Shown piece after piece: positions 4,067 to 29,581 of a stretch of DNA of 38,528 nt. A program made the translations under genes and the position numbers. The notes below the pieces were generated by a model. That model saw only the letters and a list, made by a program, of their open reading frames with translations. It was not told where the DNA came from and did no database searches. The first letter of the stretch is position 1. Every line of letters begins with the position of its first letter. Source of the DNA: a virus; the IMG/VR virus record IMGVR_UViG_3300009428_000020, positions 1 through 38,528 of that record. The stretch is one strand, 5' to 3'.

Positions 4067-4160
4067 TGCGCTTCTTATCGTCTGAAAAAAGTCCAGAAAA
4101 CTTTAATTTGCAGGCGTAACGTCAATACCCCCCCTCATTCCAATATCCATGGAGATAAGA

Positions 4161-5201: not shown

Positions 5202-5210
5202 GGAGAAGTT

Positions 5211-7397: not shown

Positions 7398-7406
7398 CTT
7401 TAATCA

Positions 7407-7425
7407 GGGCGGCCCATCGCCGCTC
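7407..7425 (+). other. GC-rich hairpin between primase and AAA ATPase genes
   Basis: GGGCGGC (7407-7413) and GCCGCTC (7419-7425) pair over 7 bp (one G-T) with a 5-base loop, followed by TTTG. It lies in the 60-bp gap after the primase stop. It might be a weak terminator, attenuator or RNA-processing site. The T-run is too short for a strong terminator. Confidence 0.35.
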
Positions 7426-7457
7426 TTTGAACACACATACATCAAGAGGATTTTTTG

Positions 7458-8204
7458 ATGAGCATTGGTAATAAAAATATTGTCCTAGTTATGGGCAAGC
7501 CTAATATGGGCAAATCAGCTTCGCTGATGAAAATGAAGAATCAGGACAAGATGATTTATCTGAATACTGATTTAAAAGAACTGCCGTTTGCTGATAATTT
7601 TATTAGCAATATTGAGGTAGCCGACGCTAATGATGTGCTGGGTTATATCGAGCAGATTGAGTCAGCGGAAAAAGTTGAAGGTGCAGTATTAGATACTATT
7701 ACGTTTCTAATGTCGATGTATGAACGCCAGTATGTCGCCAACGCAACTAATGGACAAAAAGCATGGGGAGATTACGGAAACTTTTATCGTGAGTTTATTC
7801 ATGCAATCAAATCCGGAACTAAAGATTATGCCATTTTGGCACATGAAGAGTCCTTCCTAAACGAGCAATCACACCAGATGGAGTCTAAAGTTCCTGTAAA
7901 AGGTTCAGTAGGCAAAACTGGCGTGGAGGCAGACTTCACCACCATCTTAGCTGCTAAGCAGATGCCTGTCAGTAAACTGGAAGAGCACGCCAACGATCTT
8001 CTTCACATCACAGACGAAGAGCGTGAAGATGGGCTGAAATACGTCTTCTGTACGCGGGTTACAAAAGAAACTGCAGGCGAGAAGATGCGCTCAGCTATTG
8101 GTTTATGGGACCGCAAGGAACTGTATATCGATAATGACCTTGAGCAAGTATTCCAGCGTTTGCGTGACTATTACCGTACAGGCAAAAAGCAGGAGGCAGC
8201 GTGA
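7458..8204 (+). CDS. RecA-like AAA_24 / Sak4-like ATPase
   Basis: 248 aa from ATG 7458; AGAGGA seven bases upstream decides the start over a TTG one codon earlier. The Walker A box is GKPNMGKS at residues 13-20, close to the N-terminus, and the Walker B-like strand is GAVLDT with D79. The layout (short N-terminal Walker A, MIYLNTD strand, long acidic/helical middle) resembles the phage AAA_24/Sak4 family. Members of that family promote single-strand annealing or recombination together with phage ssDNA-binding proteins. An ssDNA-binding-like gene and a RuvC-like resolvase sit just downstream, which supports a recombination/replication module. Its stop overlaps the GTG start of the MazG-like gene. 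Confidence 0.75.
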   Translation: MSIGNKNIVLVMGKPNMGKSASLMKMKNQDKMIYLNTDLKELPFADNFISNIEVADANDVLGYIEQIESAEKVEGAVLDTITFLMSMYERQYVANATNGQKAWGDYGNFYREFIHAIKSGTKDYAILAHEESFLNEQSHQMESKVPVKGSVGKTGVEADFTTILAAKQMPVSKLEEHANDLLHITDEEREDGLKYVFCTRVTKETAGEKMRSAIGLWDRKELYIDNDLEQVFQRLRDYYRTGKKQEAA

Positions 8205-8686
8205 GCATTACCCATCCAGAAATGGTCGCTAAGCTCGTTAAGCCCGGTGACCAAATTGCGCGTGAAATGACAAAAAAGGACCTTCAAACGCTTACTGGTT
8301 ATTGCGCGCAGCTAATCTTGGCTGGTTACAGTTTAGATAGCGTTAAAAAGCGCATTATTTATCGCCAAAACAATCAAGACACCGGACGTAAGCAGGCAGA
8401 GATTGAAGGCACACAAGCTCACCTCCTCCACATGGCAGTGGGCATAGCTGGCGAAGCAGCAGAACTACTCGATGCAGTTGTTAAATATGTTGAAGGTGAC
8501 CGCCTCGATATCGACAACTGTATCGAAGAGTTGGGTGACATAGAGTTTTACATGGAAGGTTTCCGTGATGCTTTAAGTTTTACCCGCAAAAATATTCTCG
8601 ATGCCAATATCGAGAAACTATCTGTCCGTTATGACGGACTTAACTATAGCGATCAAGCAGCACAAGATCGCGCCGATAAACAATAA
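8201..8686 (+). CDS. MazG-like nucleotide pyrophosphohydrolase
   Basis: 161 aa, with start GTG 8201 supported by AGGAGG at 8191-8196; GTGA overlaps the previous stop, so translation is coupled. The all-alpha NTP-pyrophosphohydrolase signature is visible: E85-x-x-E88 (GEAAEL) and E110-x-x-D113 (EELGDIEFY), which bind Mg in MazG/dUTPase-like enzymes. Such phage enzymes hydrolyse NTPs or dNTPs to monophosphates, and are thought to adjust nucleotide or alarmone pools in infected cells. The first 60 residues are a helical extension not needed for the core fold. Substrate cannot be told from sequence. Confidence 0.8.
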   Translation: MSITHPEMVAKLVKPGDQIAREMTKKDLQTLTGYCAQLILAGYSLDSVKKRIIYRQNNQDTGRKQAEIEGTQAHLLHMAVGIAGEAAELLDAVVKYVEGDRLDIDNCIEELGDIEFYMEGFRDALSFTRKNILDANIEKLSVRYDGLNYSDQAAQDRADKQ

Positions 8687-8696
8687 GGAGCCTATT

Positions 8697-9443
8697 ATGG
8701 GTGCATTTGCAAAGTTAAAAGACGATACGTCAATCCAAGAAGAAAAAGATGTTTTAGGTGGGGGAAGTAAGTTTGGTCCCGTTGCTTCAGACACTTATAA
8801 CACAACTATTAGCATGATCTATACCCGCACAACCGCTAACGGTGCACGCTATGTCTGCATGACACTTAAAACAGCAGAAGGTCGTGAAATCCGCGTAGAA
8901 GACATGCTAGTTAACTCCGGCAATGCTAAAGGTAATAAGCATTACTACGAAACCAAAGCAGGTGAACGCCGTTACCACAAAGGCTATACCCTGGTAAACC
9001 ACCTAGCAATGTTAACCGCTGAAAAGCACTTAGCTGAACTAGATACCGAAGAAAAAGTCATTAAGCTTTGGAACTTCAAAAGCCGTTCAGAAGAACCAAC
9101 TAAGGTTCCAGTAATTGCTGAGTTGCTAGACAAGCCAATTACAGCAGCCATCTTTAATAAAATTGAAGATAAAACTGCTTACGATGAAGCTTCAGGCAAC
9201 TATCTGGTTACGGGCGAAACTCGTACTTTTAACGAAGTAGATAAGTTCTTTCGTGCTTCTGACAACATGACTGTTTCCGAGCTAAAAGCTGGTGCTGACA
9301 CCGCTACTTTCTACAATACGTGGAAAGCAAAGTGGGAAGGCAAAGTACGCGACTTTTCCTCTAAGGACGCTAAAGCAACTAGTGCGAAAGCATTTGGTAA
9401 AGCAGCAACGCCTACTCCTGAAAAATCGATCTTTGCCGCTTAA
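8697..9443 (+). CDS. Probable ssDNA-binding protein
   Basis: 248 aa from ATG 8697, preceded by AAGGAG directly after the previous stop. The same frame is open further upstream inside the MazG-like gene, but no ribosome site supports a longer form. The protein is rich in Lys, Glu and Thr and ends in a flexible Lys/Ala/Pro-rich tail finishing SIFAA. Its central YVCMTLKTAEGREIRVEDML and RRYHKGYTLVNHLAML stretches look like OB-type beta strands of phage ssDNA-binding proteins (from memory of related podovirus proteins). It lies between a Sak4-like ATPase and a RuvC-like resolvase, the usual place. No single diagnostic motif is present, so the call is a family resemblance plus context. Confidence 0.6.
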   Translation: MGAFAKLKDDTSIQEEKDVLGGGSKFGPVASDTYNTTISMIYTRTTANGARYVCMTLKTAEGREIRVEDMLVNSGNAKGNKHYYETKAGERRYHKGYTLVNHLAMLTAEKHLAELDTEEKVIKLWNFKSRSEEPTKVPVIAELLDKPITAAIFNKIEDKTAYDEASGNYLVTGETRTFNEVDKFFRASDNMTVSELKAGADTATFYNTWKAKWEGKVRDFSSKDAKATSAKAFGKAATPTPEKSIFAA

Positions 9444-10012
9444 TGGCGAATATTACTGTAGCAGGTTTTGACCCCAGCCTGAGAAATTGGGGTTATTGTA
9501 TAGGTAATTACTGCACAGAGTCTAAGGCACTTACTATCGGGGATATAGGGGTCATTTGCCCAAATGTTCCTACCGGTAAACAAATTAGACAAAACAGTAA
9601 AGACCTGGTCTCCGCTCAAGCCTTATACGAAAAAGCCTTTACCCTTGCCATGGGAGTGCAGGCACTTTTTGTAGAGGTGCCTCACGGTTCCCAGTCCTCA
9701 CGGGCAACTGTCTCCTATGCCGTTTGCGTAGGGGTACTGGGTTCAATGCGGGCGAGCGGAAGACCTTTTTATGAATTAACCGCTAACGAAGTTAAGTTAG
9801 CAACAGGATTGCCTAAAACAGCTTCAAAACAAGCAATGATCGACTGGGCAACGAGTAAGTACCCTAATGCTGCTTGGCCTACATATAATAAAAACGGCAA
9901 GACACTAGTTACCGCAGCAAAGGCAGAACACATAGCCGACTCGATCGCCACCATTCATGCGGGACTCCAGTTACAAGAGTTCCAATCACTCATAGCAATG
10001 ACAACACATTAA
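9443..10012 (+). CDS. RuvC-like Holliday-junction resolvase
   Basis: 189 aa; ATG 9443 overlaps the upstream stop as TAATG, so translation is coupled. The RNase H/RuvC fold residues are visible: D10 in VAGFDPSLRNWG, E78 in ALFVEVPHGS, and the C-terminal helix AEHIADSIA with H163 and D166. These form the two-metal site that nicks four-way DNA junctions. In phages such enzymes resolve branched replication intermediates before packaging. The gene is intact and close to cellular RuvC length (about 170 aa). Confidence 0.85.
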   Translation: MANITVAGFDPSLRNWGYCIGNYCTESKALTIGDIGVICPNVPTGKQIRQNSKDLVSAQALYEKAFTLAMGVQALFVEVPHGSQSSRATVSYAVCVGVLGSMRASGRPFYELTANEVKLATGLPKTASKQAMIDWATSKYPNAAWPTYNKNGKTLVTAAKAEHIADSIATIHAGLQLQEFQSLIAMTTH

Positions 10013-10021
10013 GGAATTTTT

Positions 10022-10330
10022 ATGCATATTATAATCAAGCAAGCAGAGCTTGAGGCCGCCGTACGTCAGTACGTTAGCGGGCTTGGCATCACTGCGCCCA
10101 TTAACTCAGTATCGTTTACAGCAAAGCGCGGTGACGATGGTATTATCGCAGAAGTTGATGTGGGGGCTTCTCAGGCGTCCAGCGCATCAGCAGAAGCAAC
10201 TTCCCCTGTAGCTCTCGTAGAAGGAGGAACAGAAACTATATCGGCCGATAGCGGCTTTAGCAGTAATACCTCTTTAACTGAAGAAGGAGACAGCGATGTT
10301 TCTGAAAAATCTTCTATCTTCGGCGGATAG
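10022..10330 (+). CDS. Hypothetical protein, 102 aa, acidic Ser-rich tail
   Basis: Starts at ATG 10022 with AAGGAA upstream. Residues 1-50 look folded (an MHIIIKQAELEAAVRQYV helix and a VSFTAKRGDDGIIAEVDVG strand pair). The remaining half is low-complexity Ser/Ala/Glu/Thr and ends in SSIFGG. I do not recognise the family. The ending, a hydrophobic residue and small residues after an acidic tail, is reminiscent of ssDNA-binding-protein tails, but this is only a resemblance. Its 3' end overlaps the next gene by 35 bp. Confidence 0.6.
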   Translation: MHIIIKQAELEAAVRQYVSGLGITAPINSVSFTAKRGDDGIIAEVDVGASQASSASAEATSPVALVEGGTETISADSGFSSNTSLTEEGDSDVSEKSSIFGG

Positions 10331-10527: not shown

Positions 10528-10545
10528 AAGCCCCGCAAGGGGCTT
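10528..10545. terminator. Convergent (bidirectional) terminator
   Basis: AAGCCCC (10528-10534), loop GCAA, GGGGCTT (10539-10545): a 7-bp stem with a stable GNRA-type tetraloop. It lies exactly where plus-strand genes (ending 10526) and minus-strand genes (ending 10544) meet. T-rich bases follow on both strands (TTATT on plus, TTTCT on minus), so it can stop transcription from both sides. Confidence 0.8.
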
Positions 10546-13500
10546 ATTCACCTATCCCTAATATCTCTGTCAGAGCATTAACTGGCAGTATCTCAGCAAC
10601 TGCCTCAGGCAGTTGTAACGCCCCACTTCCCACATTTACTGGCCAATGGTCCACAACAGATGAATCCAGTATGTCTGAAACATTAAAGACGTAATCACCT
10701 AAAGCCAGCACGCCAACAGCCCTAGCAGGGTTACGTTTCACGAGCTGTACGATTACCGTCTGAATCCTCACGTAGTACTTAGTAAACCACAACAAACCTT
10801 TATCATTCGCGTACTGAATGCCCTTATGCGTGGGTACGTTATACGAAACAAATGCTTTTCTTGCTTCACGCAATGCAGCTTCTTTAGACATTGGCTTTTT
10901 AGCTTCTTTAGTCAGGTACTCATACATCACATAACGTGAGGTAAAATCACTAAAAGTAGTGGCTTTGTTCATTACTTTATACAAAGTAGTATCGTGAGTT
11001 AAAAACAAGCGCTTAGCCCCAGACTTAACCCAAGGCGGCAACTTCGCAGTCTTCTCATCTGACCATCGGGCTAACTTACTGCTGTAAGAATACGGGTCTT
11101 CTTCTTGGGAGATATCCTCTACTAGCGTACTGTACATACCGTCATCCATTAAATCTTTGACGGGACTATTTTCAATTTCCGTATTAAGCTGAATTATACG
11201 CTGACGCGCAGCATCAGCAGTAATAGGCTTTTTATCCATATCTAGCACTGTATTTGTACCAATAGCTAATTGCTGATTGAGATGAAAAAGCTCTCTCTCA
11301 TGTTCGAGGTAATCCATCGTAAAACCATAGGCTTCAACTTTTTTCTTTGCAATATAATTTACTGGTGCGCCCACCAACATTAACACTGAGGCGTTAGATA
11401 ACTCATTCCCCATTAAAGTAAACCCAGTCTTAATTACCAGGGCATCTTTAATGATTTTGACTGCTTCATCCCACATGGCTCCGCCTTGTGACATCCGAAG
11501 AGCTGCCTGCTTACCTAACGGAACAACTTTGCCGTTACGTATTGTAGGGATTAGATTTTCAGCCAAGCCTACAAATAACTTAGTCATCAAGTCCCGTTCT
11601 TCAGGAATAGTGTCAAACAATGACGCGAGCGTGAACTTGCGATACCCAAACATCATACTGTATGACTGATTATGAATACGAATCGTATCCGTACCAAACT
11701 TCTGACGAATATACGCCTTGGCTTCATCTGGGAGCGTGTTATAGCGATCTCTAATCTCTGGATCGGGAGATTCAGGGCCGAATTGTATAAATGCGTTAGG
11801 TTCTTTAGCAAACTTTTGCTGATACTCTTCGTAAATTGCATCGATACCCCTTTTGTTAGTTATCGGCGTCTGTACCTTATTGAGTGTACTAGCGGCTATA
11901 GTGCCCATTATCTTGTCTACTTGGTTGGTAGGGTTCAACAAAGCACGCTTAGTGTCTAACGACATCATATAGCGGTAATTAACGGCATCGCCTTTGTGAT
12001 CAATAATCGGAACAGTATAAGTTTCTTTGACTTTAGTTGGGTCAAAAGCTTCCCCATTTTTAAACATAGCAGCAATCCCGGCATCGATCTTATCCGTAGA
12101 TTTCTTGTTCATTATCTTGGCGAAGGGATTAACCTCACCATCGACTATGTTAACCTGGCTGCCGCTGTTCAAAGCGTGCCCCCGGCTTTTCTTGGCGGCA
12201 GTAGAAAGAGACCCGCTAACGGTTTCAGCAAGCGCCCTATCTTTTATACGGTATAAATTACGGTTTTCCAAAGTAAAGTCGTTAGCGGCTTTATCCAGTT
12301 TGCCTACCATTTCATAGCCACTATCGATCATGTAATCATGTTTGGCGGCATCTTCGCCAATTACATCGATATAAGGATCATTGATGTCCTTGATATAGCC
12401 CTTAATCATGCTAACTGGGTTACCGTCAAACAGGTGTTTCTTGGCAGATACTTGCATCTCACGGTGGAGTAATAACAACAACTCAACCCCGTTGCCTTTG
12501 TCTTCGCGGTTTATTTCGTCCCGCAAAATTTGAGAGCCTATTTGCCGGACCGGCATAGGCGTATATTTAAGCGCGTACAGGCTAATTAAAGGTTCTAAGG
12601 CGGTAGCAACCGAATCGCCATAAACAGCCCGAGAACGGCTTAATTTGCTCTTTGTGTTGGCTTTGAAGGCTATATTGTGGGTATTCATCATTAGACTAGG
12701 CACAATGACCTTATTTGTCGCCATGTGATAGGCAAGAGCTTTAGCAGAGGTCAAATAATAATCAATATCTCTGTTACCTGCGACGCCCTTGAACGCATTA
12801 ACGGTGTTGAGAATTTCTTTCTCCAATAATGCAGGGTCTGTAAGCATCTGCTCTATCTGGCTTAAGTCATACAAGCCCAATAACGCTTGAGCATCTGTAC
12901 GAACAAACACATCGGTAAGGCTGGACGATTCTTGCTCAGACATTTTTCGGAGGAAGCGGTTCTTTACCAAAGTAGCAGTATTATCCAGTGTCTTCATCAC
13001 ACTTCTCTGCGCTGCATCGGCGGCATTAAGCAGTTGATAGCGCCAAGAGTTTTCTTCTGTCTCGCCTTTGGCTTCGTTGACTAAATCCATGCCTATCCCT
13101 AGTCGCCCAGTAACCATGCGGTTGCGTACTTTATCCAACGCCTTAACAAAATCTTCCACCTGTTCAGAGGCTACAATGTTAACTGCCATACCGGCTGTTT
13201 GGACAAGGGTAGAACCAGACTTAGTAAAAAAAGCTGATTCAGTCGTTTTCTTAATGCCTTCACGGACGGCTGTGGCTAGTTTTTCGCCAGTCGCATCGGC
13301 TAAGTCACTAATAGGGCTGCGACTCGAATAAATGGCCGATTTACGGCGGTTTTCCGCAGTAGCCAAATCAGTGACCATCCGAATAATACTCACGCTGGCA
13401 GATTCACCTGCGTAGGTACGCGTCATTAAGCGGTTGAGGTAAGCCACCATTTTGTCGATAAAAAGCTTAAGCGACTCAGCTAAATTCATGCCTCTACGTG

Positions 13501-16500
13501 TACGACTATCAATGGCTTTCTTCTGATCATTGAGTATTTGCGTCAGAGGTGAATACACCATTGCAGCTGCAGCAAAGCGGCTCAAGTAATCAGCAGAATT
13601 GCCCTTAGCGCCTGTTGTCGAGAAAATAGCGGCATATTCGTCTTTGCTTAGCTTTGCTTTTATATCTGGGTTTTTTCTAGCCTGGTCATAAATCGACATT
13701 AGCTCTTTACGGCGAACTGCTGAGTTCTGTAACGAGCCTCGAATAGCAATCTCTAACGATTCCAGTACAAACTCTTCTTGATGCGATAACTGTAACCTCG
13801 CTGAAACCAGTGAACTAAAGGGTGTATGCCCTGTGGCTTTAGCGTGAAGATACACTTCCTCTGCGGTCGCTGGAGAGTTATTTGCTATCTCGGCCTTAAT
13901 GGGACCTTCGGCACCGTATACGGCATAAACCACGCTAGACAGGATACCCTGCAGCTGTTCCACCCGTTTTGCGCTATGCGGGGTAGCTTGGGTTTTGCCC
14001 AACGCATCCAATACTTGTGCTGAAGTAAAAGTTCTTGCGTCGTTTGATTCCATTTTAAACCTGCGGGCCTTTTGCGCCTTGCCCTCCGGGCGAGCGCTCT
14101 GGCCCAGCAGTTGAAAAGTATTGTGTATGGTTAGTTCCAAAGCTGTTCTTGTTTCAGCATTCTTTTTCGTATTCGGTAAAACCAGATCCACTAACAATTT
14201 CACAAAGCGTTTTAAGGCCGTGGCCATTTCTTGGAAACGCCCGGTCGTATTTTCGACAATCTGCCCTTCTACTTGAATACCCGCCATGTGTTTCTGGAAG
14301 GCAGGATTGGTCATGCCCCAACTAATGAACTCGTGAAGATCTTTTAAGGCTTCTTTGAACTCGCCGTTTTGGGTGCCGTCTTTAACAATATTATATAAAC
14401 CATTAAGGTCATCGATGATTGCCTTGTTTTCTGGAGAGAGTTTTTTCCCTTCTTCCCAGTCAGCAATAGTGTGAGCCACGGCAGCGTGTGTCAGTTCATG
14501 AGCCAGCAGTTCCCCAGTAATACCTGAGTGTACAAAGTCAGGGCTTTTGATGTTTACGGAATCCCCACCAGGATCTATTGAGTACCACCCACGGGCAGTT
14601 TTAAGGCCTTTATCCCGAGAGTTAAACTCAGACTGCGGAGTAATGTATTTGACGGGAATTTGCTCGCTAACATGCGTGCTTAAAGTTTGTAATAACTTGC
14701 CTAAGTACGCGTTGGTTTTGCCTACCTGTTTTGCGGCCTGTCTAGCTAACTGTTTTGCGTTGCCTTTGCGTTGTGCTATGGTTTCTACCAGTTTCACTAA
14801 GTCAGGGTCAGACGGTACACCCGGTGTACCCACTCTACCCCACTCAGTATTAGTTTCGGCTTGCTCAGGCGTAACTCGAGTAGGTACAGGCGTAGATTCT
14901 GTTGCGTCGTCTTTATCAGCGATAGGTGGTACTGCAGCCAGTGCATCACTATTGGTATTCTCAACAAAGCGCGTTTCAAGAAACCCTTCGATGCGTTTTT
15001 GTTCCGCCGCTAAGTTTTTCTTGTCTTGCTCCGTAACAACATAGCTACCGGCACCTTCACCGTTTTTATCGATGGGGGGAAACGCATACTGATCTACTAC
15101 TGTGACCTCTTGAAGAAACTTTAACTTAGACACAGTTGCCTCCGCCGCTTCTTTGGTCCATGCTCCCTCCATTTCTTTAGTGATGGGTACGTTAGCTTCT
15201 TTGAATTTAAAAGTATTTGGATTGAATTCCCATACTTTTATAGTCGCGCTATTAATTGCTTCACTTAACCCTTCGTACTGTCCGCTCAGTTTATCTCCAG
15301 CCAAAAAAGAACGATTAAGTGCGCTCGTCATTTCCATTGGGAGCGAGTAGCCTGCTAGCATCCTAAAAGTGTTTCGATTAAGAGTGGTAGCAGTGTCTAC
15401 CATTTGGCCAACACCGGTGCCTGCCGCATCATGTACGTTAAGTACCGGTTGCTCTGCTACAGTTAGTGTCATAATGGCACTTTCTGTGGCGTGGGTTGCG
15501 CCGATAACAGGCCCTGCCCCAGGCTCAGTTAACGCTATACGTTTACCTGTCGTGGTATAGTATTTTTTACTGGTAGGTGACTGTTGGCCCACTTTAATTA
15601 ATTTTCCTGGTACACCTGGAACAGCTGCGGAGGCATAAGCGTGCTCAGCTTCTGTCCCTACAGCGGTAGTATATGCATGTTTACCTAGATAGATCCCAGC
15701 TGAAATATCTCCGGATAACCGAGATAATGGCGTATGCATGGTAGGTTGAAGCGGGCTCAAAATATCTTCGATTCTTTTTACCGTTTCTGGAGGCAATGCT
15801 TGTAGGGCTACGTCTATCTTAGGAGCAGACTTTTCTTTATGGTATTTTTTAGAAGGGATGCTTCCATCTTTAATACCCTTTTTATAAAAATCCTTAACCA
15901 GAAATTCATAAGCGGCGTTATAGCGTGCCCAAGCAGCTTGCGCCACTTGGTTTAACGTATTACGGGTGCTAAGAAACGATTCAAAACGATTATTTAAAGT
16001 ATCTTTCATCGCAACGCCTATAGAATTGCTAAACGCTTTAAGTATGGCTGCTTCTTCGGTTGACGATAAATCAAGATTCCACGGATTTCTTGGTACTCGT
16101 ACAAGCTGGGTTTTTCCGCTAGGATCTGCCACCTTATTGAGGTTGTTAATCAGGCTTTCTGCAGTAGCATAGTTACCTTCTTGCAACGCTTTCTCGTACT
16201 TGTCATAAAATGTTTCTAGAAAAGACGCTCCCATGCTGTTAATTGCTTTGTTTAAACCAGAACCAAAAATAAGTGCAGTTAAAGGCTGCTTAACAAAACT
16301 TCTGGTGGATTTTGGGTCAGAGCCGACAATAGAGAGAACTGCATGCGCTCTCTGAGATTCTTCAACAGCAAGAAGCCCGGTATTGTTTACCATGCTTTCT
16401 GCTACTTGCTCATACAGGTCTTTCTTATTTTGAGCTTTACGGTCAGCAATACTGCTATCGTTGCCGTCACCAAAAAATCCAAAAGCCTCTGCTTGTTCGA

Positions 16501-19500
16501 TAGTTACCGCACCAAGCCCTACTTGGGCCAAGGCAGGCCCGTTATTCACCCCATCAATTTCATACATGATGTCAGTAAAGAACTGCTGCCTTTCTTGAGT
16601 ATTTTCAAAGCGTGCATAAGTAACCAAGGCATCTAGGGTATGCTGCCGAGCACCCCCAATTTCTACCATAGTGGCAATAGCTTCCTGCTGTGCTTGGTTT
16701 AATTTCTTTTGTACGCCATTTTCATCTAAGCCCGCATCAAAGCCAGCAATAATCGCATCAATCGCTGCTCTGAATTCGGGAGTAAACGTCATTTCTTCTA
16801 ACTCACGAATAACGTCTAGCTGATAACGGGTGTCTGTGTCGATGCCCATACCTTGAGCTACAGCTACCTTAAATAATCGTTGGCTTTTGCTAGAAGGATT
16901 TACTACATCCACCTCCGTAAGCCACTCTTTTTTGGTGACCATGTGACGAACGTATTTATCCGTTTGTGGATTTAACACGTTAGACTTATTGTTAGTGCGT
17001 TGTTGCTTGGTTACAACGGGGGTTAAATAAAACTCTTGGTCTTCTTCAGGACTGTACCATCCCCAAAAGTTATCGATGCCTCTTTCAATACCTCTGTTGC
17101 GTGCTTCTATAGAATTTACATTACGACGGAGCGCAGGCTTGTCTTCGGTAGGACGAACAATGCCTGCAACTGCATCTACTGTAGATCGGTCAAGCACATT
17201 AGAAATTTGTGCCATATCAACACGAGGCGCCCAAGCCTCTTTACCATACTTATCGTAAGCTTCAGCCTGTTTGGCTGGTATACGGGTTACGCCGTTTTTA
17301 ACAATTTTTTGTACGAAATCTGCAGCTACATCAGCTGGAGGAGTATCTCCACTTTCTATGAAGAAAAGTTTATTGAGGAAACTTTGACTGCCTTTACTAC
17401 TAGATACTATGGTTTGTAACCAGTCGCTGTCTGGGTTAACTGAAACAAAATTCTGAGGTTGTTTTAGTACAGACGTATTAGCTCCCAAAAGTTTCTTTTT
17501 ATTTTCTTCGTTAAGAGGAAAAGCCAAAGAAACTGTATTGTGCTGTTTCTCTACTACAATATCGCTATGCGTAAGCACTGCTAAGATATGCTGGCCCAGG
17601 CTCAGCTCTAATTTTACTTGAGTATCCTCTGGTGCCCCTCGATGCGCTTTAAGTCCTGCTGCTTGTGCAGCACGCTTACCCAAATCAGGAACAACTTGGT
17701 TACTCCTCGTACCTATATTTTTAAGCTCTTCGTAAATGGAGTTAGGAAGATGGCCTTCCTTATCTATGTTTAACATCTTTTTAACTTGTTTGCGGGCATG
17801 TAGTTCCATCGTACTACCGTTTTCACCCAAGTAAGTAAAGGCAGCTAAAGCCATAGCAGTAATGTCGTTTTCACTCACTTCGCCTGTAGTTTCGTCAATT
17901 AAAAATTTAGCTACATCTTCATAGCGGTATAGGTCGCTTTTCTTACCCTGCTCTATACTCTGCTTAAAGGCCTTCTTAAACTCTTCGTGAAAACGTAAGA
18001 AGGTAAAAAAAGCATCGCCTTGCTGGGGTGTGCCATTCTCATCGGAAACCAGAAAATCGCCTAGTCGGTTTACATCTACATCACCTTCAGGCGTAAAAAG
18101 AGATGTAATAAAATTTTTGACGGCCGTAAGCGGGTTTAGCGCTTTACTGGTTAGACTACCTTTCTTACGCACAAAATACTCTTTAACCAGATTGGCCGCC
18201 TTAAAGTCTTCTTGTGGAATGGTCCCTGAACGCTTAGGTGACGTTTCGACCTGCTCTTCTACAGATGAGTCTGTAGTTTGGTTTTCAGCCGATTCAATAG
18301 GCGAATCAGCAGATACAACGGTTTCAGTTGTTACTGGGGCTTGCTCAAGTGTACTAGACTCTGCAACAGTATTTTCTTGAGTAGGTTGACTAGAGGTATT
18401 TGGCGTACTGACTGGGACTGCTTGCGACTCAACTGGCGCTTTAGGCTTCTCAGCGGGTTTATCCGCCTGTTGTGGCGGGTTGGGTGCAGGGGCCTTGGTG
18501 CTTACCCAATCCCCTACTGTGCTGGTGCGAAACTTAGGGTCACTCTGCTCTACTAACCAAATTTGTTCCTCTAACGTCGTGCGTTTAGAGCTTTCCGCTG
18601 TTGCTTTGTCATAGGCCACTTTGGCCATATCAATTAATTCTATCTGATAGTTAACTGCAGCATTAAACGCCTCTTCCGCTTCAGAGAATTCTGAAGGGAA
18701 ATCTACGCCCCAAATATCCATCAGCTGTTTGGCTTCGTATGCAGCACGAGGGGATGGCATATAAGAATCCAGCGTAAACTTGGCTTGGCGCCTCATCCAT
18801 GTTTTGACTAACCCAGCTATTTTCTTTTTGCCTTCTGCAGGGTCAACTACGGAAAACAAATCCTGTTCAGTTATAACCTTAATACGTTTTTCATGCTCTA
18901 CTCTATTATCAAACTCTTTTTGTGTAACAGGAAAGTCCCTAGCGGCCTCCTCCTCTTCACTCAAAGCCTTATTTAAAAGTCTATTGTATATGTCAATAAC
19001 GTCGTCATTATTTGTACCTACAGCAATACGCATGCTGTCTACTTGCCTACCCAGTGTACTTAATCTCTCGCTGTCCCGTGCCATCTCCCGAGCATCCGCT
19101 AATGCTTCGTTAGCAGTGGTTCCCACATCCATTGATCGCGCACTTAGTTCCGTAAACCGGTCCAACAGGGCTTTGTACTCCTCGTTTATCTTTGTATATG
19201 CGCCTCTCAGTTTAGCCAAGGCTTCATCGGTAAAACCCTTTGCGATTTCCTTGGCCTCTTTAGAGGAGGTAGTCGGGGCTGTCACACTTTTCTGCGCCAA
19301 CTTAGCCGGTTCTGTACTTTTTTCTGCGGCAGGCTGAGCCGATTGAGCAGCCTTATTCGGCTCACTAGACTTTGGTGCTGGAGTGTCTTTAGATTTTTGT
19401 GCTCTTTCCTGTAACGAAGATGTATTGGTTTCCTGGGTAGGAGTCGCAACATCGGCAACTGCCTCTGAAGACTTATTAATATAATCTCCGCTAACAATGT

Positions 19501-22066
19501 CTGCTTCAACCGCAGTTACTATTTTGCCTGTATTGGTTTTGAACTGTAATTGCGTGATAGGGGCAGAAGGACTTCCGCCTACCTGCTCCACTTTACCGGT
19601 GAATGTGGCTTTAAAGTCTAGAGGGTTTCTACCGCCGTAATTTAATGTAACAACTTTTCCTTTATTAACTTCGGCAATTTTAGTATTTCTAGCGTTATAT
19701 TGAGCGACCAGTTCAGGGGTGTTAAGTCCGCCTTTTACAGCTTCAGGGATTACTATCTCTGATGGCGCCTCTACGGTTTCCGCCTGCACCTGCGGTGCTG
19801 CTTCAACCGTCGGCTCTGCCGAAGCGGTTGGAGTAGTAGCGGCAGTTTCAGTAGGTGTAACTTCAGGGGTGCTTTGTGTCGTTGGTTGAGTGCCCTTGAC
19901 TAAACCAATAGCACTACCGACTTGCTTACCCGCAGAAGTAAGCACAGCTTTTTCTGTAGATAACACATCAACCATTTTCTGAGTGGCTGCTTTGCCCTTG
20001 TCAGACTTGTACGCAACCCAACCGCCATGATCTTTCCCTTTAGGAATTTTATCGCTGATACTCCATTCTTTCGTGGCCGAATCCATTTTTACAAACTGGG
20101 GTTTACCCGTAGATTCAACTAGGTTTTGCGCCTCAGATACGGCTGCTAACTTCTTATCGCGGTTAACGTAAAAAGCGCGTAACTTCTCTAATTCGGTTTC
20201 TGCTGTAGCTGTGTCACCGTCAGACAGCGCAATAGAAGCATCTTGGACATACTGTGAAACACCTTTAAAGCCTTCCCCACCATTGAGCACTTCGCTATTA
20301 ACTTGTTTTAGCGTCTTATTGGCGTTATTAGCTTGCTTAACCTTTTCAAGGTCTTTACGGGTTTGTTGAACGGCACCTACATAATCACGCTCTTCTTGTG
20401 CTAATACTTGTGATTGACCTAAACGGGAGAGGTCTTCGTCGGAAAACTCGTCGGGGGTGCGCATCGCCAGTTTAAGTACACGTTCCTTCTCTTCCGTAAC
20501 CTCTTCTGCTGATTCTGCCGTTTCAATCTTTTCAAGCATTGTCTCCTTTTCTTCAGGTGCCGGTGCGGCTTCTTTTGCTAAACGATTGTTAATCACTTCA
20601 GCACTAGAACGGGTAGCTTTTAGTGCGTTATTGGCTATGCCTAAGTCACGCTTTAATGTGGCTTTCGCTGCTTCATCGGTTTCCTCGGCGAGACTGTTCT
20701 CCAAAGAAGCAATATGTTCTTCTTGGGCTTTAAGAATGCGATTGGAACGTGCACGGATATCTTCAGCAGAACGGGGAGCTTCTTCACCTTCAGCTAAACG
20801 ACGCTCACGATCGGTACTGATAACGTCATTAGCCTGCATGGCGTGAATGGGGCTGTAGGATTCTTTATCTTCTGGGTTTAGTAAGGGAGACTCGTCGCCC
20901 GTAGTAATGGCGCTAACAATATTCTCGCGGCTTTTTTCGGTATTAAGATCAGGACTAACCACTTGCTCAGCAGCAGGGCCGTCTTGAGCTGCATCGGCAA
21001 GCTCATTAGCTACGCCCTTCATAACACCTATACCACCACCGGTGGTTGCACCGCCTAATAAGCCAAGACCAATAGACTCACCTAAGCCTTCAGTAAGCTC
21101 TTGGGACTCGTCTACAGACTGAACAGCGACGTTACCGATAACATTACCCGTACCCTCTTCAAGTACCTCTTGGGCACCTTCAGCTGCACCGCCGACTACT
21201 GTACTGCCGATAACACCCATACCGGATTTCTTGCCAGCACCTGCTAAGGTCTTCTCTAAGACATCGCCGCCGGGTACAACTTTCTGGGTAACCAGGCTAG
21301 CTAAGGTAGCCGTAGCTAAAGCAGCACGCGTTCTATTAGTGGCAATCTGTTTCTTGGCTTCTTCGCGCCCTACAACTTGGGCGAGCTTACGAAACTCAGG
21401 ATTAGCGTCCCAAACATCGTCGCCTAGGCCTATCAGGCTGTCATACGTACCACTGGCGACATCGGCACCGTGTAGCGCGGATGAACCAATTGCACCACCA
21501 CGACCAGCGGCAGTAGCCGCTGCTGTAGCACTGGTAACACCACGTAAAGCATTAACGCCTTTTGCCGCGGCTCCAACACCTTTACCGATAGCACCGCCTG
21601 CAGCTAGATTGGGGAGTTGTTCAACGATGAAATTGGAGAATAGTCGGGGGTTATCTATTGTTGCCCATATTGCAGCATTCGCTTTACCTAAGGTGCCGTC
21701 GGCATTACGAATATCTTCTGCCCGCCTACCTTCCCAAAAAGGAGTAAGCAGGCCTTTTCTCTCGTTGTACCATTCTCTATTTTCTTGGCCGGTATTGCGC
21801 AACCAGTTATCCATATCGCCGGTTACTGCGCCCTGAATGGTACCTGCTCCCTCTAAAATCGCACTAAAGCCCGCCCCTAGGCTTGCTAAGGTATCTCCCA
21901 TTTGGTAGCTAGGGTCTCTTTTACGGCGTGCAATATGATCCAACATTTCCTTTTTGCGTTGGGATTTTGCGGCTAGCCTGCCTTTGCTAATGGCTGCACG
22001 TAAAGCCAATTTATTATTAAAATTAGGGTCAAAAGGGGTAATTTCAGAATAGTCGTCGTTTGCCAT
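10544..22066 (-). CDS. Giant N4-type virion RNA polymerase / ejection polyprotein with zincin domain, 3,840 aa
   Basis: One unbroken gene from ATG 22066. Layout: Gly/Ala-rich, potentially membrane-active region (about 155-345); helical region; Pro/Thr linker (about 725-775); second Pro/Gln/Ser/Thr linker (about 1195-1275); RNA-polymerase module (about 1276-2372); linker (2373-2409); HExxH zincin with H2523, E2524, H2527 and possible third ligand E2579; long helical C-terminus whose last 200 residues resemble a large-polyvalent-protein domain. Polymerase motifs: T1686-x3-R1690 followed by NPQ (DxxGR-like), motif A D1838 (YEIDGVNNG), motif B R1922-x3-K1926-x7-F1934-G1935, motif C H2212-D2213 (NVHDAAGTG). 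T7 motif B spacing is matched exactly. N4's polymerase is about 3,500 aa with a core of about 1,100 aa. Inferred role: injected with the DNA to transcribe early genes. The peptidase role is unknown. Confidence 0.88.
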   Translation of the reverse strand: MANDDYSEITPFDPNFNNKLALRAAISKGRLAAKSQRKKEMLDHIARRKRDPSYQMGDTLASLGAGFSAILEGAGTIQGAVTGDMDNWLRNTGQENREWYNERKGLLTPFWEGRRAEDIRNADGTLGKANAAIWATIDNPRLFSNFIVEQLPNLAAGGAIGKGVGAAAKGVNALRGVTSATAAATAAGRGGAIGSSALHGADVASGTYDSLIGLGDDVWDANPEFRKLAQVVGREEAKKQIATNRTRAALATATLASLVTQKVVPGGDVLEKTLAGAGKKSGMGVIGSTVVGGAAEGAQEVLEEGTGNVIGNVAVQSVDESQELTEGLGESIGLGLLGGATTGGGIGVMKGVANELADAAQDGPAAEQVVSPDLNTEKSRENIVSAITTGDESPLLNPEDKESYSPIHAMQANDVISTDRERRLAEGEEAPRSAEDIRARSNRILKAQEEHIASLENSLAEETDEAAKATLKRDLGIANNALKATRSSAEVINNRLAKEAAPAPEEKETMLEKIETAESAEEVTEEKERVLKLAMRTPDEFSDEDLSRLGQSQVLAQEERDYVGAVQQTRKDLEKVKQANNANKTLKQVNSEVLNGGEGFKGVSQYVQDASIALSDGDTATAETELEKLRAFYVNRDKKLAAVSEAQNLVESTGKPQFVKMDSATKEWSISDKIPKGKDHGGWVAYKSDKGKAATQKMVDVLSTEKAVLTSAGKQVGSAIGLVKGTQPTTQSTPEVTPTETAATTPTASAEPTVEAAPQVQAETVEAPSEIVIPEAVKGGLNTPELVAQYNARNTKIAEVNKGKVVTLNYGGRNPLDFKATFTGKVEQVGGSPSAPITQLQFKTNTGKIVTAVEADIVSGDYINKSSEAVADVATPTQETNTSSLQERAQKSKDTPAPKSSEPNKAAQSAQPAAEKSTEPAKLAQKSVTAPTTSSKEAKEIAKGFTDEALAKLRGAYTKINEEYKALLDRFTELSARSMDVGTTANEALADAREMARDSERLSTLGRQVDSMRIAVGTNNDDVIDIYNRLLNKALSEEEEAARDFPVTQKEFDNRVEHEKRIKVITEQDLFSVVDPAEGKKKIAGLVKTWMRRQAKFTLDSYMPSPRAAYEAKQLMDIWGVDFPSEFSEAEEAFNAAVNYQIELIDMAKVAYDKATAESSKRTTLEEQIWLVEQSDPKFRTSTVGDWVSTKAPAPNPPQQADKPAEKPKAPVESQAVPVSTPNTSSQPTQENTVAESSTLEQAPVTTETVVSADSPIESAENQTTDSSVEEQVETSPKRSGTIPQEDFKAANLVKEYFVRKKGSLTSKALNPLTAVKNFITSLFTPEGDVDVNRLGDFLVSDENGTPQQGDAFFTFLRFHEEFKKAFKQSIEQGKKSDLYRYEDVAKFLIDETTGEVSENDITAMALAAFTYLGENGSTMELHARKQVKKMLNIDKEGHLPNSIYEELKNIGTRSNQVVPDLGKRAAQAAGLKAHRGAPEDTQVKLELSLGQHILAVLTHSDIVVEKQHNTVSLAFPLNEENKKKLLGANTSVLKQPQNFVSVNPDSDWLQTIVSSSKGSQSFLNKLFFIESGDTPPADVAADFVQKIVKNGVTRIPAKQAEAYDKYGKEAWAPRVDMAQISNVLDRSTVDAVAGIVRPTEDKPALRRNVNSIEARNRGIERGIDNFWGWYSPEEDQEFYLTPVVTKQQRTNNKSNVLNPQTDKYVRHMVTKKEWLTEVDVVNPSSKSQRLFKVAVAQGMGIDTDTRYQLDVIRELEEMTFTPEFRAAIDAIIAGFDAGLDENGVQKKLNQAQQEAIATMVEIGGARQHTLDALVTYARFENTQERQQFFTDIMYEIDGVNNGPALAQVGLGAVTIEQAEAFGFFGDGNDSSIADRKAQNKKDLYEQVAESMVNNTGLLAVEESQRAHAVLSIVGSDPKSTRSFVKQPLTALIFGSGLNKAINSMGASFLETFYDKYEKALQEGNYATAESLINNLNKVADPSGKTQLVRVPRNPWNLDLSSTEEAAILKAFSNSIGVAMKDTLNNRFESFLSTRNTLNQVAQAAWARYNAAYEFLVKDFYKKGIKDGSIPSKKYHKEKSAPKIDVALQALPPETVKRIEDILSPLQPTMHTPLSRLSGDISAGIYLGKHAYTTAVGTEAEHAYASAAVPGVPGKLIKVGQQSPTSKKYYTTTGKRIALTEPGAGPVIGATHATESAIMTLTVAEQPVLNVHDAAGTGVGQMVDTATTLNRNTFRMLAGYSLPMEMTSALNRSFLAGDKLSGQYEGLSEAINSATIKVWEFNPNTFKFKEANVPITKEMEGAWTKEAAEATVSKLKFLQEVTVVDQYAFPPIDKNGEGAGSYVVTEQDKKNLAAEQKRIEGFLETRFVENTNSDALAAVPPIADKDDATESTPVPTRVTPEQAETNTEWGRVGTPGVPSDPDLVKLVETIAQRKGNAKQLARQAAKQVGKTNAYLGKLLQTLSTHVSEQIPVKYITPQSEFNSRDKGLKTARGWYSIDPGGDSVNIKSPDFVHSGITGELLAHELTHAAVAHTIADWEEGKKLSPENKAIIDDLNGLYNIVKDGTQNGEFKEALKDLHEFISWGMTNPAFQKHMAGIQVEGQIVENTTGRFQEMATALKRFVKLLVDLVLPNTKKNAETRTALELTIHNTFQLLGQSARPEGKAQKARRFKMESNDARTFTSAQVLDALGKTQATPHSAKRVEQLQGILSSVVYAVYGAEGPIKAEIANNSPATAEEVYLHAKATGHTPFSSLVSARLQLSHQEEFVLESLEIAIRGSLQNSAVRRKELMSIYDQARKNPDIKAKLSKDEYAAIFSTTGAKGNSADYLSRFAAAAMVYSPLTQILNDQKKAIDSRTRRGMNLAESLKLFIDKMVAYLNRLMTRTYAGESASVSIIRMVTDLATAENRRKSAIYSSRSPISDLADATGEKLATAVREGIKKTTESAFFTKSGSTLVQTAGMAVNIVASEQVEDFVKALDKVRNRMVTGRLGIGMDLVNEAKGETEENSWRYQLLNAADAAQRSVMKTLDNTATLVKNRFLRKMSEQESSSLTDVFVRTDAQALLGLYDLSQIEQMLTDPALLEKEILNTVNAFKGVAGNRDIDYYLTSAKALAYHMATNKVIVPSLMMNTHNIAFKANTKSKLSRSRAVYGDSVATALEPLISLYALKYTPMPVRQIGSQILRDEINREDKGNGVELLLLLHREMQVSAKKHLFDGNPVSMIKGYIKDINDPYIDVIGEDAAKHDYMIDSGYEMVGKLDKAANDFTLENRNLYRIKDRALAETVSGSLSTAAKKSRGHALNSGSQVNIVDGEVNPFAKIMNKKSTDKIDAGIAAMFKNGEAFDPTKVKETYTVPIIDHKGDAVNYRYMMSLDTKRALLNPTNQVDKIMGTIAASTLNKVQTPITNKRGIDAIYEEYQQKFAKEPNAFIQFGPESPDPEIRDRYNTLPDEAKAYIRQKFGTDTIRIHNQSYSMMFGYRKFTLASLFDTIPEERDLMTKLFVGLAENLIPTIRNGKVVPLGKQAALRMSQGGAMWDEAVKIIKDALVIKTGFTLMGNELSNASVLMLVGAPVNYIAKKKVEAYGFTMDYLEHERELFHLNQQLAIGTNTVLDMDKKPITADAARQRIIQLNTEIENSPVKDLMDDGMYSTLVEDISQEEDPYSYSSKLARWSDEKTAKLPPWVKSGAKRLFLTHDTTLYKVMNKATTFSDFTSRYVMYEYLTKEAKKPMSKEAALREARKAFVSYNVPTHKGIQYANDKGLLWFTKYYVRIQTVIVQLVKRNPARAVGVLALGDYVFNVSDILDSSVVDHWPVNVGSGALQLPEAVAEILPVNALTEILGIGE

Positions 22067-22207: not shown

Positions 22208-24055
22208 TTAGGGACGAGGCGGATTACGCCCCCAATAATGGTTGCCCCAGTGTTGTTTGCCAGGCGAAGCGTCGGGCTGAGGCTCTCCAGTCGTAACCAC
22301 CGGCTTCATCTTACCTGCCGCTATATGCGTATTTAAGGACGTAATAGCCATTCCAAGTTGACCTCTACCAGCACTTTGATTTAGCATCGCGTGGTCTTCT
22401 ATAGCGCGTAAGTCCGTTTGGTACTCTAAATACTTACGATAACTGGGAGCAATGTCCTCAGCTACTTTTTCAAATGCGTCAGTAATACTGATATTTTTAT
22501 TAAAGTAATCCGAGTGTACGAGATTCATTGCTCTGTCAAGATGCTCTTCTCTAAACGCTATGTGTTCCGTTACGGTGTCGCCGTTAGTATTTTTGAAAGT
22601 GATGGGGATTCCCTGCCCTAAAGCCTGCGCACTGAGGGTATCGTACTCTTTACGCGCTTTAGGGCTGCCCATCTCTCTGTAAAACATCGCATCATTGCCC
22701 GTTGCTTCCCACAAATCATTACTGTCATTGCGCTTTGCGCCTTTTTCCATTAACTCCGTGTAGGTTCTGTTTATAACGGCTTGGTTACTCTCATTGGAGT
22801 TTCTTGGCGTAAAATAGGTATTGTTTTTGTAACTAACATAATCTCTATCCAGCTGTGTCAAGTTTCGATTATATTCTCTGGTGGCATACACGTTACCATC
22901 TTGGATGAGTGTGCCCCTAACCGCGTTTTTAATTTCCGATACCTCTGTAGAGTTGGGCCTAATGTCTTCATGCCCCTCTGGCCCAATTGTTGACAAAACA
23001 GGCGACATAAGGGTTTTTTCAACTTCCGACAATGACGAAAACTCAGTTTCACTCATTATAGTGTTCAGTTCTTTTACAACTTGCTGCGCTTTGAGCATGC
23101 CTACAGGTGTTTTGTCTGTAAGTAGCTCGTCCAGTCCTGTCCATGACCCATTATTAAAAGAAATGCCTTTATTTGATAAAATTTTAGAGCCACTAATAAC
23201 TGTGCTTAAAGTGGCATTACTACGTTGATTGTGAGCAGCTTTTTCACCTGATGCGTGATTTATCGCTGCATTACCCAAATGCTTTGTCTGAGAATCGACC
23301 AGTGTTTGGGCCTCTCTTCGTAGCGTGTTATTGGTTTCGGCCGCATTTTTCTTATCTGTTTGATCTTTATCTTGTTGCGCTTCCCTATGCGCGGCTAAAA
23401 TTGAGGTTTGGCCCATTTTACTAAATTCATCACCGTACTTTTCTACTAAAGCGTCGCCGCCGGGGTAGTCACCCTTTTGATAAAGGGCTTTAGCCTCTTC
23501 GGCATAAGTACCGTAATCTCTGGACAATCCGGCCACTTCAGCAGCATGAGTACTGGCTTGGTGATCATTGCCCCATTTCTGCATATCGGCAACTTTACCC
23601 CCAAAATGCTCTTTATTGCCGTTCAGGTAATTAAGGCCTTTATCCAAACCTTCAGATGCGACTATAGATTTAAACTGCTCTTCATAAGGTTTACGGAGAA
23701 TACCTTGCTGTGTTTCATTAAAGGCATTGTCAGCTGTAAAAGCCGACTGCAAAGCAGTCTCATGCTTATCTAAACCATCACGGTATACAGACTGATCAAA
23801 GTTGTTATTCTTTCCCTGCGTTAGCTGCTCAAGCCCTGCACGGGTAGCATCGGTACCGACAGTATCTAAAGTCTGATTAGCAATGAAGTTTTTTAACTGA
23901 TCAGTATTTTCTTGCTGTTGCTCTGTGTCTTTAGAGCTAGCCAAATCAGTTAGACTTTGCAAACCTAAAGCCGTCTGAGCGTTGCTACTAACTAGCAGAT
24001 CGTTAGCAGTATCTGAACTAACAGCATTTACATTTTTCCAAGTGATCGCGCTCAT
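22208..24055 (-). CDS. Presumed ejection / internal virion protein, 615 aa
   Basis: ATG 24055 with AAGGAA six bases upstream. The start SAITWKNVNAVSSDTANDLL, followed by helical Gln/Asn/Ala-rich sequence, resembles the second internal virion protein of many podoviruses (T7 gp15-like by position; from memory such proteins often start with a Trp-Lys-Asn-Val segment). No catalytic motif is visible. It lies between a short internal-protein-like gene and the giant polymerase, as T7 gp14-gp15-gp16 do. Proposed role: part of the trans-envelope tube that leads DNA and the giant protein into the cell. Confidence 0.65.
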   Translation of the reverse strand: MSAITWKNVNAVSSDTANDLLVSSNAQTALGLQSLTDLASSKDTEQQQENTDQLKNFIANQTLDTVGTDATRAGLEQLTQGKNNNFDQSVYRDGLDKHETALQSAFTADNAFNETQQGILRKPYEEQFKSIVASEGLDKGLNYLNGNKEHFGGKVADMQKWGNDHQASTHAAEVAGLSRDYGTYAEEAKALYQKGDYPGGDALVEKYGDEFSKMGQTSILAAHREAQQDKDQTDKKNAAETNNTLRREAQTLVDSQTKHLGNAAINHASGEKAAHNQRSNATLSTVISGSKILSNKGISFNNGSWTGLDELLTDKTPVGMLKAQQVVKELNTIMSETEFSSLSEVEKTLMSPVLSTIGPEGHEDIRPNSTEVSEIKNAVRGTLIQDGNVYATREYNRNLTQLDRDYVSYKNNTYFTPRNSNESNQAVINRTYTELMEKGAKRNDSNDLWEATGNDAMFYREMGSPKARKEYDTLSAQALGQGIPITFKNTNGDTVTEHIAFREEHLDRAMNLVHSDYFNKNISITDAFEKVAEDIAPSYRKYLEYQTDLRAIEDHAMLNQSAGRGQLGMAITSLNTHIAAGKMKPVVTTGEPQPDASPGKQHWGNHYWGRNPPRP

Positions 24056-24064: not shown

Positions 24065-24688
24065 TTAAATAGTGCCTTGTACGCCATATTTTGCTAAGTG
24101 ATCTGCCGTAGTCAATGAATTAGCTCTTTGTTCATCAGTCAGTAAACTTCGACCATAAGTATGCCGCCGTTCTATTTCAGCATTGGTAGTTTTGGCAGAG
24201 TTTGCCAAATTAGCTTGAGTCAGTCCTTTCATAAAATCTAGCTCGTCCCGTGCTATTTTATTGCCCTGCATGCCATTGTAAGCCGAAAACAGCCCCGCAC
24301 CCGCCTGAAGGCCAGAAGCCAATAAACCCCAATCAAATTGGTTTTTTGTATCTGGAGAATCGAATAAAGAAGGTTTGCGTTTGGCCGCATCTACCCCCCA
24401 CTCTCCCGTTTCTAAGTTAAAATTGCCCAAACCAAGATCGGAGTTTTCAAATTGATTTGTGTCAAAGTTAAGCTGCTTTGAAAAGCCAAGGTCTGGGTTT
24501 TCAAACCCACCAGTATTCAAGTTAAAGGTCTTTCCGAGGCCAAAATCTGAGCTTTCCCATATACCTGTATTTAGATTAAAGCGTTTTTGTAGCCCCACTC
24601 CTGAAGGAGCTCTGGGATCTTGGCCAAGGGATTTCAGACTCTCTAATCTGCGGGCAGAAAGCCCCGTAGAGTCGTATGTAGTTGACAT
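24065..24688 (-). CDS. Presumed small internal virion protein with tandem repeats, 207 aa
   Basis: ATG 24688 with GAGG upstream. Residues 36-97 are four tandem copies of an 18-residue F-N-L-[ND]-T-x-x-[FW]-E-x-x-D-[FL]-G-[LF] motif, the last partial. Then comes a hydrophobic Ala/Gly-rich segment (about 117-137), then a helical region (DELDFMKGLTQANLANSAKT) typical of small phage ejection proteins in the T7 gp14 position. It is followed nine bases later by the next ejection-protein gene. The hydrophobic segment suits insertion into the host outer membrane; function is inferred from position. Confidence 0.6.
   Translation of the reverse strand: MSTTYDSTGLSARRLESLKSLGQDPRAPSGVGLQKRFNLNTGIWESSDFGLGKTFNLNTGGFENPDLGFSKQLNFDTNQFENSDLGLGNFNLETGEWGVDAAKRKPSLFDSPDTKNQFDWGLLASGLQAGAGLFSAYNGMQGNKIARDELDFMKGLTQANLANSAKTTNAEIERRHTYGRSLLTDEQRANSLTTADHLAKYGVQGTI
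24398..24583 (-). repeat. 18-residue tandem repeats within the internal virion protein
   Basis: Units at residues 36-53, 54-71, 72-88 and 89-97 (partial) repeat F-N-L-N-T-G and D-[LF]-G-[LF]. The amino-acid pattern is well kept while some positions differ, indicating old duplications under selection. Confidence 0.75.
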
Positions 24689-27545: not shown

Positions 27546-27548
27546 AGC

Positions 27549-28946: not shown

Positions 28947-28963
28947 ACTGGGCCCTTAAATTG

Positions 28964-29548
28964 TTATGCAGCTTCGTTAGATTTACTCATGGCTTGCGCC
29001 TTGGCTAAATCAGCTAACTCTTCTTTAGTAAGATCATCTAAAAGTGCTACAGTGAACTCTTTCGAGATTTTACCTCGACGAGATTCAATGCCGCTTTTAG
29101 GGTCACGTACCGTATAAAATGTTTGATAGGTTTTGTCCTTAATCATGTCATAAATGACCTGAGGAACGTGCCAGTCAGTGTCAAATGGTACCATCTCACG
29201 AATAGTTCCGGTGACACCGGAACTAAATGTAAATATCTGACCGGGCCACTCGTTTTTACGAGAATTCATACAGCTAACGCGAATGCGGCATAAACGCATA
29301 AACTTTCTACGCAGCGCTTTGCGTTGGGCTGATTTACTTAAAACGGGCGCAGCTTTGCTTTTTTCTTCTGCTTTAGGTTTAGTGCTGCCACTTGAAGCCA
29401 GTGCTTCTAAATGGTCTGCAATTTTTTTACGTAAGGTTTCTGTGCCAATATTGCCAGAAAAGGTAATACCCAATTCTGTGGCTTCTGCTTTCAGCACCTC
29501 TTTTTCTTCGAGTGCTGCTTGTTCTTCGGGGGATAATTCGTCAGTCAT
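28964..29548 (-). CDS. Conserved phage structural-region protein with SAP/HeH-like N-terminus, 194 aa
   Basis: ATG 29548 with GGAG upstream. Residues about 18-50 (KAEATELGITFSGNIGTETLRKKI) fit the helix-extended-helix (SAP/HeH/LEM-like) fold common in small phage proteins. The C-terminal domain (RIRVSCMNSRKNEWPGQIFTF, WHVPQVIYDMIKD, GKISKEFTVALLDDLTKEEL) matches, from memory, a conserved protein encoded next to the capsid gene in marine podoviruses. Function is unknown; position after the capsid gene suggests a head or head-tail component. Confidence 0.6.
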   Translation of the reverse strand: MTDELSPEEQAALEEKEVLKAEATELGITFSGNIGTETLRKKIADHLEALASSGSTKPKAEEKSKAAPVLSKSAQRKALRRKFMRLCRIRVSCMNSRKNEWPGQIFTFSSGVTGTIREMVPFDTDWHVPQVIYDMIKDKTYQTFYTVRDPKSGIESRRGKISKEFTVALLDDLTKEELADLAKAQAMSKSNEAA

Positions 29549-29581
29549 TGCGGTTTTCTCCGATGGCTATATAGAAAAAAT

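Follow-up and report, generated by a model that had tools for sequence, protein, structure and literature searches.

What is encoded by the giant open reading frame (ORF) on the minus strand of IMG/VR virus record IMGVR_UViG_3300009428_000020? The whole stretch analyzed (38,528 nucleotides, hereafter the window) contains a frame of 3,840 codons, and an original prediction, made from the letters without database searches, had placed a single-subunit RNA polymerase (RNAP) of the T7/N4 type within its product, regarded as a virion RNA polymerase (vRNAP). Our analysis supports this assignment by sequence profiles, predicted fold, catalytic residues, gene neighborhood and the absence of cysteine. 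The giant protein is almost certainly a gp50-type vRNAP of an N4-like phage (Schitoviridae), and its polymerase module is a divergent, apparently intact member of this family, not a new kind of polymerase.

Identification of the polymerase module

The frame of the giant protein is unbroken across its 3,840 codons. Over the module interval (Table 1) the plus strand, read in its first frame, is riddled with stops; the minus strand is open and encodes residues 1276-2372, as had been claimed. Low-complexity linkers are indeed present on both sides of the module, and T1686, R1690, D1838, R1922, K1926, F1934, G1935, H2212 and D2213 were each found at the predicted position, with 287 residues between the motif B Lys and the motif C Asp. 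When the residues of the protein were shuffled 5,000 times, the ordered set of four motifs never appeared. Motif A alone appeared in 145 of 2,000 shuffles and motif B alone in 92 of 2,000; neither is rare by itself, so the weight rests on their combination.

The protein matches phrog_2206, annotated as 'virion RNA polymerase', with E=0 and a score of 1,461.8 bits. The match covers residues 1155-3808, so that the homology to gp50 spans most of its length. By tblastn, 211 phage records were matched at 21-28% identity, 141 of them covering 80% or more of the module. The annotation reads virion RNA polymerase or N4 gp50 for many of these matches and 'hypothetical protein' for several; the phage records that were opened belong to Schitoviridae. 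In a full-length alignment with N4 gp50 and 11 other vRNAPs, residues R1690, D1838, R1922, K1926, F1934 and D2213 correspond to N4 R424, D559, R666, K670, Y678 and D951, and comparison of the window group with the N4 group by hhalign gave a probability of 100 (E 6e-49). A profile of the module and eight phage homologs, searched against all PDB chains, retrieved N4 vRNAP entries with E from 1e-53 to 3e-56 (3q0a/2po4, about 3e-56); nothing else in PDB was significant with these nine sequences, and T7 RNAP was not matched.

The single module sequence gave no vRNAP match in phmmer searches against PDB or in hmmscan searches against Pfam. A weak match to Bgal_small_N (E 0.005, below the cut-off) was dismissed as chance. 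The expectation that generic annotation would call such a protein hypothetical or structural was therefore borne out in part: Pfam and phmmer against PDB were blank and several relatives are labeled 'hypothetical protein', whereas PHROGs names the virion RNA polymerase outright. A search for related loci with the single protein returned no loci. For pattern building, the nine-sequence alignment proved too diverse, and an alignment of four sequences worked.

Two loci were left out of the alignment. One, on a contig assigned to the metagenome-assembled genome (MAG) of a Sulfolobales archaeon, holds a weak vRNAP-like stretch (L095, 10001-11794; 22% identity, 1e-11) in which the patterns of motifs A and B are missing; the contig may be misbinned, or the stretch may be a remote relative. 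The other is a vRNAP relative (L083, 10001-13195) whose matching region contains 17 in-frame stops in a single frame and is apparently broken by a frameshift or sequencing error.

Predicted structure

An AlphaFold2 model of residues 1276-2372, built with 54 aligned sequences, reached a mean predicted local distance difference test score (pLDDT) of 87.4 and a predicted template modeling score (pTM) of 0.88. Foldseek placed N4 mini-vRNAP at the top (E 6e-31, TM 0.67), followed by yeast mitochondrial and T7 RNAPs (E 1e-12). With VIA-align the model was superimposed on promoter-bound N4 mini-vRNAP (3c46) with Z 36.8 and a root-mean-square deviation of 5.4 over 943 residues; apo N4 mini-vRNAP scored Z 28.9, and T7 and mitochondrial RNAPs Z of about 24. 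The higher score to the promoter-bound than to the apo form suggests that the model is in an active-like conformation. The structural comparison with N4 mini-vRNAP and T7 RNAP that had been proposed as a check thus found a palm/fingers match, and the common fold together with motifs A, B and C places the module in the single-subunit (T7-like) RNAP superfamily. The match to N4 mini-vRNAP, which extends over about 950 residues, and the residue alignment together predict that D1838 and D2213 meet in one active site.

Conservation of catalytic residues

R1690, E1836, D1838, G1839, R1922, K1926, G1935 and D2213 are the same in all 54 aligned sequences. At position 2212, 49 sequences have His, three Phe and two Tyr, and the first position of the T motif, Thr here, is Trp in most relatives. 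Position 1934, equivalent to N4 Y678, is Phe in 43 sequences and Tyr in 11. The two states are strongly clustered on the maximum-likelihood vRNAP tree, where five changes suffice (at least three of them forced by well-supported branches), compared with 17 when labels are shuffled. The motif B Tyr is a variable site and does not define the family, as accepted vRNAPs such as that of LIT1 have Phe. The substitution is not new: Y678F was reported for LUZ7, LIT1 and PEV2 in 2010 and proposed to help discriminate against deoxynucleoside triphosphates (PMC3715699).

Alternative explanations

Several observations weigh against the assignment to active gp50-type vRNAPs. Identity is low, about 16% to N4 in the module and at most 31% to any sequence found. 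The T motif reads TKQQR, with Gln at the Gly position of TxxGR, and the motif B Tyr of N4 and T7 is replaced by Phe at position 1934. The N4 promoter-contact residues K114, R119, W129, D901 and R904 are not reliably traceable at 16% identity; as they are not visibly conserved, the promoter code probably differs from that of N4. Finally, the early region with its promoters lies beyond the 38.5-kb contig. The low identity to N4 and the two substitutions could indicate that the fold has been kept in an inactive module and that the giant protein is purely structural or serves in ejection. We consider this very improbable, since the catalytic residues are all retained in 54/54 relatives and the frame is intact throughout; moreover, Phe at the Y678 site is the majority state (43/54) and is present in LIT1 and LUZ7, whose vRNAP is in the virion (PMC3715699). 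The single-subunit fold shared with T7 RNAP (Z about 24) would also be expected if a T7-type (Autographiviridae) RNAP had been fused into a virion protein unrelated to gp50. The chance of this is negligible: N4 vRNAP is a far better structural match (Z 36.8 vs 24), the sequence profile does not match T7 RNAP, homology to gp50 runs through most of the protein, and all neighbors are Schitoviridae genes.

A further explanation modifies the identification as gp50-type vRNAP and does not replace it, namely that the enzyme has relaxed sugar selection, Phe having taken the place of the ribose-discriminating Tyr (N4 Y678, T7 Y639). F1934 is present, Phe is found in 43 of the 54 relatives and is tightly clustered on the tree, and there are precedents, as Y639F in T7 RNAP greatly lowers discrimination against non-canonical nucleoside triphosphates and Y564F in Syn5 RNAP lowers it likewise (PMC4538805). 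However, other residues may restore discrimination, and the effect proposed earlier for Y678F is the opposite one (PMC3715699). No biochemistry on a natural Phe-type vRNAP was found in the literature searched. Relaxed selection is a serious possibility, but one on the doubtful side of even.

Predicted virion packaging and ejection

The gp50-type vRNAP of the window contains no Cys in 3,840 residues, and none is present in any of the 12 reference vRNAPs, N4 included; a few IMG/VR relatives have one to three. In LIT1 and LUZ7 the absence of Cys from vRNAP was linked to passage through the tail or periplasm (PMC3715699). It is a supportive feature but not a unique one, because the neighboring gp51- and gp52-position candidates and some further proteins of the window also lack Cys. 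An HExxH motif occupies residues 2523-2527, and a comparable place is occupied by HExxH in 12/12 reference phage vRNAPs. In N4, for which C1 and C2 domains have been described, this motif marks C1; channels of gp51 and gp52 were proposed for vRNAP release and the C-terminal domain was proposed to autoinhibit the enzyme (PMC12633501).

By homology, the mini-vRNAP-like catalytic module would be flanked by about 1,200 N-terminal residues and by a long C-terminal part, C1 with HExxH and then C2. By analogy with N4, the vRNAP would be packaged in the capsid and threaded through the tail as a Cys-free chain with the participation of gp51/gp52 ejection proteins, and in the new host it may read the early genes, starting at single-stranded hairpin promoters. 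Catalytic activity itself and its autoinhibition by the C-terminal domain are likewise presumed from N4.

Gene neighborhood

The vRNAP gene adjoins the late cluster, where minus-strand homologs of gp50-gp59 are followed by gp67, terminase and gp69 in N4 order (Table 1). Schitoviridae core genes (major head protein, portal, terminase, vRNAP, primase and SSB) are present, also in N4 order. The N4 tail and lysis genes gp60-gp66 were not found between the portal and gp67 genes (interval 24723-38094). Fibre-type genes at the left end of the window are comparable to the moved tail cluster of LIT1, which lies in reversed orientation inside the replication module (PMC3715699).

Table 1. Features of the window and the basis of their assignment
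Feature	Positions	Strand	Basis
Excisionase-like helix-turn-helix gene	2472..2729	+	
attP-like 23 bp, equal to 3' end of a tRNA-Leu(CAA) gene	2790..2812	+	Exact genome match
Tyrosine integrase	2987..4021	+	phrog_1, 9.5e-44; PF00589, 1.6e-15
Schitoviridae replication block: gp42 exonuclease, gp43 primase, gp44 Sak4-like, MazG-like, gp45 SSB, resolvase	4149..10330	+	N4 order
Virion RNA polymerase, N4 gp50 homolog, 3,840 aa, 0 Cys	10544..22066	-	phrog_2206; Cys count
HExxH, H2523-H2527, equivalent of N4 C1 domain HExxH	14486..14500	-	Comparison with reference vRNAPs
RNA polymerase module, residues 1276-2372 (N4 mini-vRNAP 998-2103)	14951..18241	-	Profile against PDB; AlphaFold2; fold search
Motif C catalytic D2213 (N4 D951)	15428..15430	-	Alignment; conservation
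F1934 codon, Phe at the ribose-selection Tyr site	16265..16267	-	Alignment
Motif B R1922, K1926, F1934 (N4 R666, K670, Y678)	16265..16303	-	Alignment; conservation
Motif A catalytic D1838 (N4 D559)	16553..16555	-	Alignment; conservation
R1690 of T/DxxGR motif (N4 R424)	16997..16999	-	Alignment; conservation
gp51-position ejection-protein candidate, 0 Cys	22208..24055	-	Adjoins vRNAP as in N4; weak phrog_6467 match, unknown function
gp52-position ejection-protein candidate, 0 Cys	24065..24688	-	phrog_2646; N4 gene order
Schitoviridae late block: gp53-gp59 homologs (major head protein, portal), gp67, terminase large subunit, gp69	24723..38094	-	Order as in N4 and Littlefix

At the left end, a large fibre-like ORF on the minus strand (3-1901), with a borderline carbohydrate-binding domain (PF02018), runs off the window and adjoins a gp80-like fibre protein gene (1914-2339). 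The major head protein (29613-30983) is 58% identical to that of Littlefix over their shared part; after residue 95 it has about 50 inserted residues with no counterpart in the Littlefix protein.

Lysogeny module and related apparent prophages

The fibre genes and gp42 enclose a lysogeny module (2472-4021). A search of 369 gammaproteobacterial genomes for the 23 bp located between its excisionase-like gene and integrase gave an exact match in one genome, where they form the 3' terminus of tRNA-Leu(CAA); reversed-pattern controls gave no match in the same genome search. As the window contains no tRNA gene, the 23 bp look like attP, and the phage seems capable of integrating at a tRNA gene of a bacterium. 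At the gene level, the features expected of a temperate phage are present: an integrase, an excisionase and an attP-like match to a bacterial tRNA 3' end. Among the 43 records searched, the window included, 13 had an integrase over the Pfam cut-off. The sister of the window vRNAP is encoded by IMG/VR contig 3300009425_000073 (L014/L098), with a support of 98 in the Shimodaira-Hasegawa-like approximate likelihood ratio test (SH-aLRT).

Two bacterial genomes bear on the same question. Marinobacterium litorale DSM 23545, a cultured isolate, has an integrase related to that of the window (E 3.5e-58), whose frame starts 64 bp after tRNA-Leu(UAA). Contig C16 (L102, 8917-10359) carries tRNA-Gly, tRNA-Cys, tRNA-Leu(UAA) and the integrase in this order. 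N4-like gp67, portal and capsid genes occur on the integrase contig and a vRNAP gene on another contig; the isolate thus carries an apparent N4-like prophage. In a Burkholderiaceae MAG (contig C129; L104, 1-1867), tRNA-Gly and tRNA-Cys at the contig start are followed by integrase and excisionase genes, and the same contig holds genes for DNA polymerase, N4-like gp69, terminase, portal, capsid and vRNAP. This contig is a probable N4-like prophage beside a tRNA-Cys gene; insertion into the tRNA-Leu of a Gly-Cys-Leu operon was rejected, as the integrase follows tRNA-Cys.

Temperate N4-like viruses have already been proposed from 54 genomes and proviruses (PMC10654107). The lysogeny module of the window is therefore a corroboration of temperate N4-like phages and not their discovery, to which the attachment site and the two hosts may be additional.

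Comparison with known systems

N4 gp50 (PDB 2PO4, 3C2P, 3C3L, 9PNQ, 9PNR) shares with the window protein the fold, the order and identity of catalytic residues, the module size, the HExxH at the C1 position, the absence of Cys, and a position next to gp51/gp52 where the late cluster begins. The window protein differs in its module identity of only about 16%, in Phe for Y678, in TKQQR for TxxGR, in about 230 more residues before the module, and in promoter-contact residues that are not recognizably kept. The closest named phages are those of Littlefixvirus and Litunavirus (Littlefix, LIT1, LUZ7, PEV2), with 27-29% module identity, and their vRNAPs likewise have Phe at the Y678 site; their tail genes are likewise out of the late block. 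The LIT1-type vRNAP has been detected in virions by mass spectrometry (PMC3715699). In contrast to the 3,840 residues found here, Littlefix/LIT1-type vRNAPs have about 3,370-3,400, and for LIT1-type phages no lysogeny module is described, integrase being unmentioned in PMC3715699, whereas the window has one.

An N4-like genome with an integrase is also found in contig 3300009425_000073 and in the temperate N4-like viruses of PMC10654107. In 3300009425_000073 (L098), genes for fibres, excisionase, integrase, exonuclease and primase follow one another as they do in the window; however, its vRNAP is just 29% identical and its integrase sequence differs. T7 and mitochondrial single-subunit RNAPs have the same palm/fingers/thumb fold and motifs A, B and C, but the likeness stays at the fold level (Z about 24): they have no virion module, and motifs B and C are 181 residues apart in T7 RNAP compared with 287 here.

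Implications

Motif reading without databases found a real polymerase that was missed by Pfam and single-sequence PDB searches, and the module extends the vRNAP family by a deep branch. As Tyr and Phe have been exchanged several times on the tree, the family offers natural enzymes with which sugar selection by single-subunit RNAPs could be tested.

The early genes of N4 depend on vRNAP delivered by the particle; therefore, a prophage residing in a tRNA gene would need another start. The N4 logic, in which the injected polymerase reads the early genes, does not explain how such a prophage would begin; as one example, the host RNA polymerase could first make vRNAP from the late block. More probably than not, the window represents an N4-like phage that is temperate and has to begin its induction with no injected vRNAP. 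This can be tested, given the attP-like tRNA-Leu sequence, the apparent prophages and a lysogeny module that the nearest relative has as well.

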